In this document: one piece after another, positions 44,155 through 53,257 of the stretch
Layout: every line of letters begins with the position of its first letter
How positions within the stretch are numbered: the stretch's first letter is position 1
Origin: Yarrowia lipolytica
Taxonomy: Eukaryota > Ascomycota > Dipodascomycetes > Dipodascales
Direction of reading: 5' to 3'
Assembly: GCF_001761485.1 (NCBI RefSeq)
Contig: NC_090773.1
Span: 682,001-746,000 of the forward strand
DNA length: 64,000 nucleotides
Notes under the pieces: generated by a model
Database searches by the model: none
Told to the model about the DNA's origin: nothing
What the model saw: the letters and a program-made list of their open reading frames with translations, nothing else
Program-made: the position numbers and the translations under genes

Positions 44155-44273
44155 AGTTGCGGCTATATCCTGGTGAAAATACGGCTCCCGGTGATCAGCC
44201 ATAGTCAAGCACCAGAGAGAGCCTAGTTAGTATTGTAGCGTGAGACCAAACGAGAATCCTGGATGCTGCAATT
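44155..44273 (+). pseudogene. Degenerate 5S rRNA copy
   Basis: Similar over its full length to the 5S gene at 24131-24249 (shared: ATCCTGGTGAAAATACGGCT and ATCAGCCATAGTCAAGCACC), but with roughly a dozen differences. They include a 2-base shortening around CTCCCGGTGATC, an extra GA in GAGAGAGCC, and changes in the terminal stem (AGTTGCGGCT against GGTTACGGCC; GATGCTGCAATT against GGTGCTGTAATC). There is no T run directly after it and no tRNA in front. Called a relic because both stem ends and internal spacing are altered. Confidence 0.85.
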
Positions 44274-44904
44274 GTTTCTCCAGTTGCAAAGAACGGTCGG
44301 TGTATGTTTGAATAGTACATCTTCTTTTTTATTGCTGTGGACCATGTTGAAACGGGTGATGCACGACGAGTACAAGTACAACTACAAGTATGGCAGGATG
44401 TGTACATACAATAGGGGTAGAGCGTAGAGAACAGGACCAACGAAATCACAAGTGTGCTGCAAATCCGGGGAAATTGATACTCAATCTGAATCAGATCAAG
44501 ATTTAGAATTCATTGATATAATTATTCACACCCCTATTCTCAGTAAAATTGTCCAATATGGAGCCATTACTACGGGCGTCCCTTCACAGGCTCTTTGCTC
44601 CACCTACCACAACAAGAACACCACTTTTTCCAATGAACAGAAAAGTTGAGGGCAAATGGAGATCTGGAGAGCATTCATCGTCCGTTATATAATCTGAATC
44701 CGTCTTTATTTTCACCCCTCTCATACAATATTTCGACTTGTATGTACAATGTCTTACAGTCGAGTGATCCCCTATATCAAATAATTTCCAGCACTGTACG
44801 ATATCCACTGTACGATATCCACTGTACGCAGACAGAAACGTGATTCGAAGCAGACTCAAGCCATCATGTTCATCCATCGATTTTACCATTTCCCAGAAAT
44901 TTTC

Positions 44905-45138: not shown

Positions 45139-47559
45139 ATGAATTTTCTGCGCAACATTCTGGGCTCTGGGTCCAAGCAGGAGCTTGCGGTGATCCCGTC
45201 AGGCCAGCTGTTTCTCAAACGGTCGCCGCACTCGGTCAAGGGCGTTTCCGAGTGCATCTACAAGGAGGCAGCCGCCATCATCCGAAAGACCGAGGTGGAG
45301 TTCCAGAGCCAGCTCATTGTCCAGAGAGTCTACGAGGAGGGCGAGGAGGCATTCGAGGGCACCGAAGAAGAGGACCAGCTTGACGACGAAGAATGGTGCT
45401 ATCTGATTGACGAGGCCCTTCGAATCAGCTACTTCATGCAGGACGGCCATGTGGTTGTGACATGGAACGATCTCAATGGCGACCCCGGAGACCGGTTCGA
45501 ATTCATCTGCGACACCAGCATCAAACCCGAGGTGTATGACAAGTTCTCCAAGGTGGCCCAGGAGTGCATGTACGAGCGAAAGTACACTGCAAGTGCAAAG
45601 GGAGTCAGCGAAGACGATCTCAACGAGTTTGACTACCCTCCTCCGGTAACAGAGGTCGAGGCCAATGAGTCTACCGCCGTGGACGAGTCCGTGGCTGCTG
45701 ACTTTAACGAGGTGGACAAACGCGTGGCACACGACACGGAAGGCATCTTCGTTAAGGAGGAAGAGGAGGGGAAGAAGGAGAACAAGGCCCACGCTAGCGT
45801 GCCTACAGCTGCTCCCGAGACTGTGGCTGCCGCGGTGGCTGCGCCTGCCTCCGCTCCTGTTGTGCAGGACTTGCCCCAGTTCGACGCTCTCCTGGGAGAG
45901 AACAATGCTGAGCTGCATCTGTTTGATGCCGGGACCGGTGCGTTTGAACTGCAGGCAGCCTCCACCACCGTGCGAATTGAGGAGGTGGCCAAGCAGTGGG
46001 AGTATTGGCTGACTGTGACGAACGGAACCAAACCCGTACTGGGCATGCCCATCACCTCGGAGATGAACCCCTGCTTCAACTACGAGCATCTGTCGTTCAT
46101 CTTCAACTACTTTGCACCTACCGGAGCGGGTTTCTCGTGGCTGCTCAAGTTTGGCTCGTTCGAGGAGCTCGAGATCTTCCAGCAGGTGTTCATGCAGGCT
46201 CTGTGGCAGAGACTGCATCGTCAAAAGTACACAACCGCTCCCGAGACAGAAAAGGACTACCTTTCCGAAGCCTTTGGAGCTATGGATATTGACGACGAAG
46301 GCACCACCGGTCTGGAGGATCTTCCTGAGGAGGACGAGGATGAAGATGAGTTTGAGGACTGCCCCCAGGGCCCCGCACGAGACTTCTCTGATGACGAGGA
46401 GTACGACAACGACGAGGTGTTTGGAAAGAACGACGATCTCGACAAGAACAAGCTGCTTGCCGTCGGAACTTCCAACGACCGGTCGTATGTTGTACGAGGA
46501 AACCGAATTGGAGTGTTCAAAAATACTGCCGACAACGAGCTCGAGTTTGCCACCACTATTGAGAACATTTCCAAGCCCGACAAGACGTCGTTCAACCCCG
46601 ACAAGATGATGCTGCATTACCAGGACAAGCACATTGTGCTGCAGGACAAGTCTGAGGGCAACAACCTGTACAAGATGGATCTTGAGTACGGTAAGGTGGT
46701 GGACGAGTGGAAGGTGAGTGATGACTCCAAGAACGGCGTTGTCAGCTTTGCTCCCTCGGCCAAGTTTGCGCAGATGACTGGCGAGCAGACCTTCCTGGGA
46801 ATGGCCAACTCGGGTCTGTTCCGAATCGATCCCCGTCTCAGTGGATCCAAGCTGGTTGATAGTGAGCACAAGAAGTATGCCACCAACAACCAGTTTTCGG
46901 CTCTGACTTCCACCGAGGGTGGCCACATTGCTGTGGCCTCGCAGAAGGGAGAAATCCGACTGTTTGACCGACTTGGAATCAATGCCAAGACCGCTCTCCC
47001 CGCCCTTGGAGATCCCATTCTGGGCGTCGATGTGTCTGCTGACGGCCGATGGATTCTGGCCACCTGCAAGACTTATATTCTTCTGATCGACGCTACAATC
47101 AAGGATGGCAAATACGAGGGCGAGACCGGATTCAAGCGGTCGTTTGCCAAGGACGCCAAACCCCGTCCCAAGCGTCTCCAGATTTCCCCCGAGCATGTGG
47201 CCTTCATGCTTGCCGAGACTGGTTCTGGCTTGAACTTCACCAAGGCGCATTTCAACCAGGGCCCCAATTCTCGAGAGCAGACGGTTGTGACGTCTTCTGG
47301 CCCATACGTGGTTACTTGGTCGCTTAAGAAGCTGCTGCGAGGAGACGCCAACCCCTACCTCATCAAGCGGTACTCTGACCAGGTTACTGCTGGAGACTTC
47401 CGATTCGGCACTGACAAGAACGTCATTGTTGCCACCGAGGACGATGTCAACATGGTGTCCAAGAAGTCGTTCCGTAAGCCCACGCGGGAGTCTCTGGCGA
47501 CTCCTGGCATGCGACGGGGCACTCTGGGACGAAGTAGCATTGTTAACGAGTTGTACTAG
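45139..47559 (+). CDS. VID27: Vid27 family protein
   Basis: An 806-residue cytoplasmic protein of the fungal/plant Vid27 family. Seen: the family N terminus MNFLRNILGSGSKQELAVIPSG, an N-terminal PH-like part with EWCYLIDEALRISYFM, a Glu/Ala-rich linker (about 160-250), a second PH-like segment (about 255-370), a strongly acidic stretch (about 395-430), and the C-terminal beta-propeller-like domain (about 440-780) with typical words such as VGTSNDRSYVVRGNRIGVF, HIAVASQKGEIRLFDRLG and PILGVDVSADGRWILATC. Saccharomyces Vid27 (782 residues) came from a screen for vacuolar import and degradation of fructose-1,6-bisphosphatase; its biochemical role is unclear. No intron. A 683-codon antisense frame is a codon-bias shadow. 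Confidence 0.95.
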   Translation: MNFLRNILGSGSKQELAVIPSGQLFLKRSPHSVKGVSECIYKEAAAIIRKTEVEFQSQLIVQRVYEEGEEAFEGTEEEDQLDDEEWCYLIDEALRISYFMQDGHVVVTWNDLNGDPGDRFEFICDTSIKPEVYDKFSKVAQECMYERKYTASAKGVSEDDLNEFDYPPPVTEVEANESTAVDESVAADFNEVDKRVAHDTEGIFVKEEEEGKKENKAHASVPTAAPETVAAAVAAPASAPVVQDLPQFDALLGENNAELHLFDAGTGAFELQAASTTVRIEEVAKQWEYWLTVTNGTKPVLGMPITSEMNPCFNYEHLSFIFNYFAPTGAGFSWLLKFGSFEELEIFQQVFMQALWQRLHRQKYTTAPETEKDYLSEAFGAMDIDDEGTTGLEDLPEEDEDEDEFEDCPQGPARDFSDDEEYDNDEVFGKNDDLDKNKLLAVGTSNDRSYVVRGNRIGVFKNTADNELEFATTIENISKPDKTSFNPDKMMLHYQDKHIVLQDKSEGNNLYKMDLEYGKVVDEWKVSDDSKNGVVSFAPSAKFAQMTGEQTFLGMANSGLFRIDPRLSGSKLVDSEHKKYATNNQFSALTSTEGGHIAVASQKGEIRLFDRLGINAKTALPALGDPILGVDVSADGRWILATCKTYILLIDATIKDGKYEGETGFKRSFAKDAKPRPKRLQISPEHVAFMLAETGSGLNFTKAHFNQGPNSREQTVVTSSGPYVVTWSLKKLLRGDANPYLIKRYSDQVTAGDFRFGTDKNVIVATEDDVNMVSKKSFRKPTRESLATPGMRRGTLGRSSIVNELY

Positions 47560-49965: not shown

Positions 49966-51742
49966 GGTGGGAATGTGCAGAAAGCGGAGTACAGCATAGT
50001 GCATATCGAGGAATATAAGCTGGAGAGCAAGGTCAGGTCACGTGTCAGGTCACGTGCCGGGACACAAGGCAGCATTTTGGATGAACATTTTTTTTTTTTT
50101 CATTTTCGGGAAAAGTGAGAGATAACAATGAAAAATTTTCTATGGTGGCTGATACGGGACATGTATCTATCGTATCAAATGACTTTCCAGGCAAAACTAC
50201 TGTCTATGAGTGTGTATTGTAGACGAATTTGGTCAGATGTGTTTCTGATTGACAAATATCGCTCGAGACAAAGGGTCTCAGCCAGTTGATTGACCTTCTC
50301 CTGTGATTGACCTTCTCCTGTTTTGACCTTTCTTCTTGATCACCTTCTGGTCTGACGGCAATAACGACTGTTCTTGGGGTTTCATAGCACTGTTGAATAT
50401 GCCACAAGTTCAAGTAGTAGCTGACATAGCTGACGTAGCTGACGTAGCTGACGTAGCTGACGTAGCTGACGTAGCTGACGTAGCTGACGTAGCTGACGTT
50501 AAGACTGGCACTTTTCGTCCACCAATCCACATCCTAGTAACAAACCGTGTATATGTTCTTCCTTTCTTAGGTACAAGTGATAGAGAGGTTCTCTTGTGGT
50601 GATTGAGGTTCTTTGTGGTGAGAGTGACAGTGAAAGTATTCTTCTGAGACAATCAGTTGATCTTTCTGACTAGGGACTTGGTCATCTGGTAGGAGTAGAA
50701 GTATTAGAACGACAACTGCCGTTACCATCAGATCCAGTACCATCAGATCCAGTTGCTGTAGATGGATGGAGTCATCTCAGACAGTAACACCATCGGCTCA
50801 ATCGGATCGATCATCACTTTGATCTTTGATATCCCGTTTCCAATGGTCTAGACGACTATTCCATCAGTCATTCCATACGTCCATCACTCGATAAACAGTC
50901 AATATCGTCTGTAGAAGTGACAACATTGCTCGATTGTGCAGACTTTGACACTCCCTCCTCACTGAACTTGCCGGAACTCGACGAAAACTCGGCGAGCATA
51001 CTTGTCCAGAGCAGCTCATGCCTCAGGAGAGGCAGCATCTAGAGCGGACAAGTACGCACCGGGGGTCTTGCCATCCACCAACCGAGAAACACCCACAATA
51101 TCCTCGAACTCGCCAGGAATGCCAAATGGGGCGCAAGAGCGACAGTGAAAGATGCACCCAAGATTGCAAGAGAAACAAACATCACCTACAAGACTGCGTT
51201 GGTGGGGGTACCGAGCATGTCAGAGAGTTTCTCCGAAGGACAGCGACTTGCCATTGTCACCCCTTGACTTGTTCACGTCTTGACCTTGACTTCGTCAACC
51301 CCTCGCTGCCTCCCCCGTCGAGTCAGCATCCTAGACACATCAACAGTTCCGACTAGGTGTATTCCAGCTTGTTACTCTCGGGCAAATCTCACCTCTGGAG
51401 ATAGCTATCTGGAACAGCTTCTGGAGAACAGCTACAGCTACGGCTACTTGGACGATAGTGCTGTATGTTGCACTTCCAATGGCAATTCTGTTGAGAGACA
51501 AATCGACGACAACATACGACGATCGACAACGTAGCGATCATGGCTGTAGCCATCACAGCATAATTACGCCATGATCTAAGCCATGGTACAATATCCTCTC
51601 ATTTCATTTACACCATTAACGCATCTACACCACCGACTACACTATCACTCCACTCCACTACTCCACTCCACCCACTCGTTAATCGTGCAAAAGCCATATA
51701 TTGAATTTTTTGGGGTCCCGGATCTAGCATACATCGCGCTGC
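49966..51742. other. Intergenic between ATL and RPL39
   Basis: About 1.8 kb. Contains an upstream CACGTG word near the ATL gene (50037-50058), nine 9-bp TGACGT repeats at 50419-50499, and possible relic coding DNA on the minus strand near 50990-51130. No intact gene was accepted. Confidence 0.5.
50419..50499 (+). repeat. Nine tandem 9-bp repeats carrying TGACGT
   Basis: Nine head-to-tail copies of AGCTGACGT (the first has ACAT). Each holds TGACGT, the CRE half site recognised by bZIP ATF/CREB proteins, at exact 9-bp spacing. The run also reads through without stops in one frame of each strand, but only as a trivial repeat peptide. Confidence 0.9.
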
Positions 51743-52639
51743 TTAGATACCAAGCTTGGTTCGTCGCCAGTGTCGTCGCTTGGCGTTGTATCGAACGGTG
51801 TTGTTGGTCTTGAATCGGACCCACTGGGGCAGGGGTCGGTTCTGTCGGGAGGCCTTGGCCAGCTTGGACTTGGTCTTGAAGGTCTTGAGACTCTGGGGTT
51901 AGTGCTGTCTAACGCATCAGCGAGTTGGCCACCTTGCGCGCAATGTCGCGCGTCAGCCGTCGCTTGGTCTGGTTCCACACCCGCTTGGCGAATTTGCCAC
52001 CGGACGTTTTCAGGTTCGACGAGTTTGACGGTCTGCCAGAATTATGGCCAGAGTTATGTTGACCGGAGTTATTCTGGTAATGCTGGGGCTGCTGGGGCTG
52101 CTGGTACTGATTACCCTGACCTCCGCCACCATAGTTACCACCACCATTGCCATAACTGCCACCATAATTCTGACCGGACTGAGGAGGCGGCTGGTAGCCA
52201 GGGTACCCGCTGGAAGACTGCTGGTACTGGTTCTGAGACGGATACTGGTTCTGGGACGGATACTGGTTCTGAGTCTGGTACTGGTTTTGTGACTGGTAGT
52301 TGCCACCATAACCGCCATACTGAACGCCACCAGAGTTGGCATGGCCAGCGTTGTAGCCACCCTGGGAGTGGTTGCTATACTGGCCCTGGCCCTGGTTGTC
52401 GTACCGTGAGTACCCCTGTTGCGAAAAATTGTTGCTGCTCATGTTGTGGTGCAGAAGTCAAGTTGTGGTGACAACATGTCCTGTGTCATGCCCACAACAT
52501 GAACAAGGCGGTGGCCACGACACCGGTCCGGTGGAGTCCAAATCCGCCCCGTCAACAACCCGCCAAAACCCTCCGCCCGCTCAGTCGTCCGCAAATCGCA
52601 CCATCGTCGTCCATTCTCTCGCTCCATACTCACAGGCAT
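51743..52639 (-). CDS. RPL39: 60S ribosomal protein eL39, two-codon first exon
   Basis: The 51-residue ribosomal protein is coded by 52639-52634 (ATG CCT only) and 51892-51743. The intron (741 bp) begins GTGAGT and ends ACTAACCCCAG. Exon 2 reads [20 protein letters not shown], then continues [20 protein letters not shown] and ends HWRRTKLGI, matching eL39 throughout and giving exactly the 51 residues of yeast Rpl39. eL39 lines the lower part of the peptide exit tunnel. Exon 2 has no start codon of its own, which forces the search for the 6-base exon. The arrangement of one or two codons before a long intron is common in yeast ribosomal genes. Diverges from RPS22; the shared promoter is 225 bp. 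The intron holds a sense-strand 177-codon ORF. Confidence 0.94.
51909..52442 (-). CDS. 177-codon Q/N/G/Y-rich prion-like ORF nested in the RPL39 intron
   Basis: An uninterrupted ATG-to-TAG frame on the same strand as RPL39, filling 534 of the 741 intron bases. It starts 191 bases after the 5' splice site and stops about 10 bases before the branch point CTAAC. The first about 130 residues are composed almost only of Q, N, G, Y, S and P, with repeats such as [15 protein letters not shown] and a [11 protein letters not shown] type of unit, like prion domains. The last about 35 residues switch to a basic, helix-like tail ([19 protein letters not shown], then [11 protein letters not shown]). Codon choice fits coding use. 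No family is recognised. It could be translated from unspliced or separately started transcripts, or be a chance expansion. Confidence 0.6.
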   Translation of the reverse strand: MSSNNFSQQGYSRYDNQGQGQYSNHSQGGYNAGHANSGGVQYGGYGGNYQSQNQYQTQNQYPSQNQYPSQNQYQQSSSGYPGYQPPPQSGQNYGGSYGNGGGNYGGGGQGNQYQQPQQPQHYQNNSGQHNSGHNSGRPSNSSNLKTSGGKFAKRVWNQTKRRLTRDIARKVANSLMR

Positions 52640-52864
52640 TGTTATTTGTCGTTGTCAATCTTGTAAAAAACCAAGGTTGATTTGAGGATTTTTGCGTGTG
52701 CGGTTGGGAGGTCCTGGTGAGTGCCAACCCTAGTTTTGGTCATGTGACGTGACTGTGAAAACTCTGGGATTTTTCGACGATGCACAACCTTAACCTTATT
52801 CGACACACCTCCCAACACTGGCAAAAATATCGCCCCAAAGTGTTTTTACACTCCATCTGCAAAA
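52640..52864. promoter_or_regulatory. Shared divergent promoter of RPL39 and RPS22
   Basis: A 225-bp spacer between the two ribosomal-protein ATGs. It contains GACGTGACTG at 52746-52755, of which the related GATGTGACTG lies at 55895-55904 in front of RPS14, at a similar distance from its ATG. Divergent sharing would couple the two subunits' transcription. Confidence 0.7.
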
Positions 52865-53257
52865 ATGACCCGAACCTCCGTTCTCGCTGACGCTCTCCAG
52901 TCCATCACCAACGCCGAGAAGGCCGGCAAGCGACAGGTCCTGATCCGACCTTCCTCCAAGGTCATCATCAAGTTCCTGACCGTCATGCAGCAGCACGGCT
53001 ACATTGGCGAGTTCGAGTACGTGGACGACCACCGATCCGGCAAGATTGTGGTCCAGCTCAACGGCCGACTCAACAAGTGCGGAGTCATTTCTCCCCGATT
53101 CAACGTCAAGATCGACGACGTTGAGAAGTGGATCCAGAACCTGCTGCCCTCTCGACAGTTTGGTTACATCATTCTGACCACCTCTGCCGGAATCATGGAC
53201 CACGAGGAGGCCCGACGACGACACGTTGCCGGCAAGATCCTCGGATTCTTCTACTAG
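52865..53257 (+). CDS. RPS22: 40S ribosomal protein uS8
   Basis: A 130-residue ribosomal protein of the uS8 family, full length and intronless, [20 protein letters not shown] to [14 protein letters not shown]. Hallmarks: [31 protein letters not shown], and the C-terminal [12 protein letters not shown] core. In yeast the RPS22 paralogues differ by an intron; here the ORF is continuous. uS8 binds helix 21 of 18S rRNA in the early small subunit. Confidence 0.97.

Follow-up and report, generated by a model that had tools for sequence, protein, structure and literature searches.

Can the intron of a ribosomal protein gene house, at the same time, a protein gene of its own? This question is raised by the RPL39 locus of Yarrowia lipolytica, located in the 64,000-nucleotide stretch of DNA analysed in this work (hereafter the window), where an open reading frame (ORF) of 177 codons lies inside the RPL39 intron and runs in the sense of its host. 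Our results support this frame as a sense-nested ORF with several protein-coding marks; in the following, we characterize the host gene, the anatomy and coding signals of the nested ORF, its possible routes to expression, and the explanations that compete to account for it. The coordinates of the main features are given in Table 1.

Joining positions 52639-52634 to 51892 yields, on translation, a protein of 51 amino acids followed by a stop, which carries the eL39 domain (PF00832, Ribosomal_L39, E 5.2e-22), with the intron splitting the gene after codon 2; the exon assignment proposed in the initial annotation, i.e., a two-codon exon followed by an intron, is thereby borne out. When the RPL39 protein was compared with the genome, a single match was obtained at E <= 1, corresponding to exon 2 (residues 3-51), and therefore the gene looks single copy. 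The intron length equals 3 x 247 nt, its GC content is 0.564, and it ends in ACTAAC-CC-CAG, where its sole CTAAC is found, with one CTGAC further upstream. In canonical Y. lipolytica introns, GTGAGT constitutes 73.0% of the starts, CAG 79.5% of the ends and ACTAAC the branch motif in 67.5% of the cases (PMC13309789), so that all three splice motifs of the RPL39 intron are the commonest of the species. A single base separates the branch motif from the 3' splice motif in 72.5% of the species' introns, and the distance of 2 displayed by RPL39 lies within the 0 to 5 bases at which introns are spliced well (PMC13309789). The same source describes introns longer than 700 nt, or with a GC content above 0.55, as classes with lower splicing efficiency, and the RPL39 intron belongs to both.

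RPL39 and its neighbour RPS22 are divergent, with 225 bp between their start codons (52640-52864). The same pair is also divergent in Saccharomyces cerevisiae, which suggests that the region between them is an old shared promoter. The RPS22 protein is identical to one occurring on 17 contigs, and its named relative nearest by identity, among the best 120 of 7188 matches, is YALI0F25399p of Y. lipolytica (93%), presumably a paralogue.

Table 1. Features of the RPL39 locus and its nested ORF, in window coordinates.
Feature	Coordinates	Strand	Basis
RPL39 exon 1, coding part (ATG CCT)	52634..52639	-	joined product matches PF00832
RPL39 exon 2, coding part and stop	51743..51892	-	PF00832 match of joined product; genome match
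RPL39 intron, 741 nt, phase 0, GTGAGT...ACTAACCCCAG	51893..52633	-	species consensus motifs (PMC13309789)
Branch-point motif ACTAAC, 2 nt before CAG (51895-51893)	51898..51903	-	role from species consensus (PMC13309789)
Nested ORF, 177 codons, Q/N/G/Y/S-rich, basic C-terminal tail	51909..52442	-	ORF list, translation, coding tests
Basic tail, codons 147-177 of nested ORF; helix 147-176 predicted	51912..52004	-	AlphaFold
18-bp tandem repeat within nested ORF, 4.3 copies, 83% matches	52221..52298	-	repeat search
66-codon frame from RPL39 AUG through retained intron	52439..52639	-	ORF list, AUG scan
Intron part upstream of nested ORF, 191 nt; presumed internal start site	52443..52633	-	AUG scan
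RPS22 (uS8), divergent neighbour of RPL39	52865..53257	+	Pfam, protein search

The nested ORF is a complete coding sequence, from the ATG at 52442 to the TAG at 51911-51909, contained wholly within the intron, on the strand of RPL39 and in a frame that differs from that of its host. The ORF reading agrees in this with the initial annotation, which had already described a sense frame of 177 codons inside the intron; its placement of the stop upstream of the branch point also holds, but the distance of about 10 bases does not, as the stop lies 5 nt before ACTAAC. Residues Q (32), G (31), S (23), N (23) and Y (18) dominate the 177 positions, with Q and N together accounting for 55, and the five residues reach 71.8% of the whole nested ORF and 82% of residues 1-146. 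By comparison, none of the other 91 gene-class ORFs exceeds 46.6% for these five residues, and none of 46 shadow ORFs 39.5%; the two classes were set mechanically by overlap, and some short gene-class members are probably not genes. Almost all K and R occur in the tail, where residues 147-177 include 10 K/R and 1 D/E. Thus, the prion-like composition and basic tail noted earlier are both confirmed.

In an AlphaFold model run on the single sequence without an alignment, the nested protein displayed a mean pLDDT of 54 and a pTM of 0.24, with most of residues 1-146 at low confidence, and these residues are probably disordered. The predicted helix of residues 147-176 showed block-mean pLDDT values of 93 (151-160), 96 (161-170) and 86 (171-177), against 63 for residues 141-150; since a lone basic helix is easily predicted and the confidence of the model is low, it represents weak evidence of coding. 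Yeast Q/N-rich proteins and FUS-type domains are known prion-like low-complexity proteins, and the nested ORF resembles such Q/N- or G/Y/S/Q-rich proteins in composition and in its low-confidence, probably disordered model: composition and low pLDDT together describe the long Q/N-rich, low-complexity and disordered region by which they are recognized. Unlike them, it is short, ends in a basic helix and has no domain detected in a Pfam search. Two further candidate interpretations of the tail were discarded, namely an amphipathic membrane helix (the whole-tail moment is ordinary, with 2263 of 5000 shuffles as high) and a derivation from RPL39 (BLASTP E 0.97 over 8 residues).

Regarding the length of the frame, at least 177 codons were reached in 30 of 5000 dinucleotide shuffles of the RPL39 intron and in 142 of 5000 order-2 Markov sequences, the latter model overstating chance because it was trained on the intron that contains the nested ORF. 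For Y. lipolytica, the number of introns predicted to exceed 700 nt is 61 (PMC2911113), and under the two null models roughly 0.4 to 1.7 frames of such length would be expected genome-wide (61 x 30/5000 and 61 x 142/5000, respectively). As a control, 264 kb were scanned with a finder that needs at least 100 downstream codons, so that RPL39 itself is not listable; this gave 7 putative, unvalidated introns, three of them exceeding 1 kb, whose longest nested sense frames measured 0, 5, 6, 24, 58, 76 and 125 codons. None of these control frames is as long as 177 codons, seven introns being too few for a rate. Searches of the genome with sequence patterns gave no control intron set: AATGNNNGTGAGT occurred 38 times, ACTAACNCAG 852 times and CACTAACN{1,6}CAG 326 times, versus 31, 278 and 390, respectively, for the reversed-pattern controls. 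The length of the nested ORF alone is moderately unusual and constitutes weak evidence of coding.

Composition, codon choice and the pattern of internal repeats go beyond length as a signal. Scored against the codon choice of 11 window ORFs, the nested frame obtained +22.4 bits and the other five frames -16.9 to -132.1. Against 58 long ORFs of the 264 kb, the nested ORF scored 0.141 bits per codon, a value at or above that of 46 of the 92 gene-class ORFs (itself counted) and equalled or exceeded by 3 of the 46 shadow ORFs; between these overlap-defined classes, the codon score means for ORFs of 150-259 codons were -0.018 (25 gene-class) and -0.170 (38 shadow). When the same protein was simulated with base-composition codons, none of 2000 simulations reached the codon score of the nested ORF. 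Furthermore, the offsets among its internal repeats (5 segments passing the scorer) are all divisible by three, the mismatches at codon positions 1, 2 and 3 amount to 3, 2 and 10, and the codons changed by a single base include 8 synonymous and 3 non-synonymous cases in frame, whereas either of the other frames gives 0 and 11. For the share of third-position mismatches, 10 of 15, the binomial value is 0.0085, which is only indicative, as the segments overlap and the mismatches, largely from one tandem array, are not independent. Within this one genome, codon choice and repeat pattern both point to protein constraint in the nested frame. In terms of start context, the nested ATG equals or outscores 52% of the 58 long ORFs, the set used to build the start matrix, and its level is reached by 6.8% of the 2109 ATGs in the window and by 13% of the 46 shadow starts; its score of 2.27 is lower than that of RPL39 (3.35). 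An antisense frame at 51770-52471 (233 aa from a GTG) was also considered as a candidate and rejected, having no Pfam match, with the stop-free antisense frame being codon-negative.

A word-seeded search with the whole nested protein against 5.8 billion proteins returned 162 candidates, none at E <= 0.001, and a word-seeded protein search with residues 130-177 returned one candidate and none at E <= 10, results to be read bearing in mind that nested frames are often unannotated and that low-complexity queries score poorly. Since the database includes proteins of Y. lipolytica and Yarrowia sp. B02, as seen among the best 120 of 7188 matches to the RPS22 query, the absence of homologues does not come from a missing genus; the nested ORF itself was absent among the proteins of this database, whose sources thus seem to lack an annotation for it. 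With no homologue found, the frame may be young or neutral. Among PDB sequences, a single match (E 9.7) was disregarded; a peptide pattern matched 21 stretches of viral and 52 of prokaryote contigs, none of them encoding a relative; and no paralogue of the nested protein, its tail or the intron DNA was found in the six-contig genome of 20.5 Mb besides the locus itself. Rfam detected no RNA family over 51880-52650 up to E 1. A literature search on nested genes within Yarrowia introns found none on those themes, and the word "nested" does not occur in the excerpted text of PMC4022394, which deals with introns of a Yarrowia relative. The population diversity reported for Y. lipolytica is pi 0.00177 (PMC9865632).

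Concerning the routes to expression, seven AUGs precede the nested ORF in an unspliced RPL39 RNA, corresponding to that of RPL39 and six intronic ones, the last at 52477; a further ATG at 52743 lies perhaps upstream of the RPL39 start site. For this reason, ordinary scanning on a retained-intron RNA would hardly reach the nested ORF, and the proposal of the initial annotation that intron retention yields the protein does not stand as far as scanning is concerned. Reading from the RPL39 AUG, or from any of the AUGs in frame with it (52627, 52489 and 52477), leads to the TGA of the 66-codon frame, a frame that the initial annotation does not mention. This TGA overlaps the nested ATG in the motif ATGA (52442-52439), a stop overlapping the next AUG as expected of a coupled stop-restart; from the unspliced mRNA, such a restart would be the only route to translation of the nested ORF. 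An alternative 3' splice site before the nested ORF was rejected, the sole CTAAC being at the intron end, and inspection by eye of the 191 intron nt preceding the nested ORF revealed no promoter element.

The explanation we favour, while holding it to be about evenly poised between right and wrong, is an unannotated, lineage-restricted nested gene that would be started inside the intron and use RPL39 exon 2 as its 3' UTR. Accordingly worded as a model, the RPL39 intron would house a same-strand protein gene with a product of 177 residues, in which ~146 probably disordered Q/N/G/Y/S-rich residues would be followed by a basic helix of ~30. A minor or condition-specific transcript would start inside the intron, by the logic of scanning downstream of about 52477, with a leader of up to about 34 nt, no upstream AUG and the nested ORF as its first frame; it would presumably end at the RPL39 terminator, carrying exon 2 as 3' UTR, and would stay unspliced, having no 5' splice site. 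Spliced RPL39 mRNA would be made as usual from the upstream promoter region shared with RPS22. As it lacks a 5' splice site, the internal transcript need not compete with RPL39 splicing, although transcription of the host running across the internal start could cause interference. The anatomy and a coding-like signature are what the analysis shows; transcription from the internal start, translation and any function are what we infer, and as to function, our guess would be that the low-complexity part and the basic helix bind nucleic acids or form condensates. One RNA molecule cannot yield both RPL39 and the nested protein; the mutual exclusion of the two products and the coupling of ribosome production to a low-complexity protein, as put forward in the initial annotation, are putative, not supported by these results and not required by the data.

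A predicted CDS inside an intron has been reported in the same species, namely YALI0D18436g (353 aa), in the 3,478-nt intron of YALI0D18403g, described as conserved in close relatives with the underlying data not shown (PMC2911113). In its discussion, that paper speaks of an intronic gene that relies on an alternative promoter to be expressed; YALI0D18403g has alternative transcription start sites, but the two mapped ones are those of the host gene, and thus the precedent does not demonstrate an independent nested transcript. The RPL39-nested CDS is similar to YALI0D18436g in being a complete predicted CDS (of unknown function in that case) in an intron of Y. lipolytica. It differs in its host, a ribosomal protein gene rather than a long gene with an alternative 5' exon, in ending just 5 nt short of the branch motif, and in being known from the sequence of one genome, in contrast to the reported conservation of YALI0D18436g. 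The nested arrangement is therefore probably of a known kind, with a reported same-species case, and its host and product are unusual. Introns with additional roles include starvation-responsive, growth-regulating introns, and snoRNA-bearing introns of ribosomal protein genes. RPL30 is subject to autoregulated splicing (PMC2911113). The RPL39 intron is similar to such regulatory ribosomal-protein introns in carrying extra information and differs from them in having no RNA family (up to E 1) and an ordinary leader fold; its extra information looks like protein.

Among the alternatives to an internally started nested gene, it is unlikely that the frame is no gene at all, i.e., that it is open by virtue of low-complexity intron DNA and looks coding by chance or repeat expansion. 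Frames this long do occur in the order-2 simulations and roughly 0.4 to 1.7 would be expected by chance among the introns above 700 nt, the ORF includes a tandem repeat, the antisense strand also has a stop-free frame, and the protein database searches found no homologues; however, codon choice, third-position bias of the repeats, start context and composition agree on one frame, and the order-2 model, trained on the ORF-containing intron, overstates chance. A relic or newly born gene, moved in or arisen de novo and without retained function today, would be consistent with the lack of a paralogue in the genome and of a homologue in the searched collections, and with a coding signature that is present yet absent among the searched proteins. 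This we consider distinctly unlikely, as the frame runs uninterrupted through 177 codons chosen much as in genes, and de novo frames are usually without codon adaptation.

It is improbable, in our view, that the nested ORF is reached by intron retention and stop-restart, in which an exported unspliced RNA would be translated along the 66-codon frame to its UGA, with restart at the AUGA. Termination-reinitiation at AUGA is a mechanism of victoriviruses. The convergence of the RPL39 AUG and three in-frame AUGs on the TGA overlapping the nested start would fit this route, as would the phase 0 of the intron, so that GTGAGT brings no immediate stop (PMC2911113), and the length and GC content that place the intron in the classes of lower splicing efficiency (PMC13309789); the terms AUGA and termination-reinitiation do occur in passages of the fungal victorivirus literature. 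On the other hand, 1114 of 10000 shuffles also keep the leader frame open, and hence the ATGA arrangement by itself is not strong evidence. The leader RNA fold showed no excess structure relative to shuffles (z 0.24), so that no restart-promoting fold is indicated, and eukaryotic ribosomes generally restart poorly after a frame of 66 codons. Moreover, all three splice motifs are those used most often in the species, favouring splicing (PMC13309789), and some RNAs that retain an intron are cleared by nonsense-mediated decay (NMD) (PMC2911113). When UPF1 or UPF2 was deleted, unspliced RNA increased for a subset of the genes with introns, in an account whose excerpted text does not name RPL39 (PMC2911113). 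If true, stop-restart would provide the mutually exclusive switch of the initial annotation by another route. A complete two-state switch, in which splicing would give RPL39 and the retained RNA the prion-like protein by AUGA stop-restart, seems highly improbable to us; were it to exist, failing splicing of a ribosome gene would itself yield a condensate-forming, basic-tailed protein.

Returning to the nested gene started inside the intron, it would, if real, represent a protein gene within a ribosomal protein gene intron of an industrial yeast, one that was probably overlooked since its interval had been taken up by an intron assignment. Such a gene would mean that yeast intron space can hold a lineage-specific gene, would provide a testable case of host splicing coexisting with a nested start site, and would imply that deletion or swap of the intron unknowingly removes a protein.

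Other features were observed in the window. On the same strand, a tRNA-Glu (CTC) gene at 24045-24128 precedes a 5S rRNA gene at 24131-24250, with 2 nt between them, tRNA-5S tandem transcription units being known in Y. lipolytica, and a second, lower-scoring 5S gene is located at 44155-44274. Long antisense frames accompany two ORFs: a VID27 homologue at 45139-47559 (+) has an antisense open frame of 683 codons (45199-47250), and a methyltransferase-domain ORF at 31846-32979 (-) is overlapped by an antisense frame of 373 codons (region 31660-32979), with no Pfam match at E <= 0.01 for either antisense frame. Finally, a 9-bp tandem repeat, GTAGCTGAC, is found at 50417-50499 in 9.2 copies with 97% matches, with several frames open through it.
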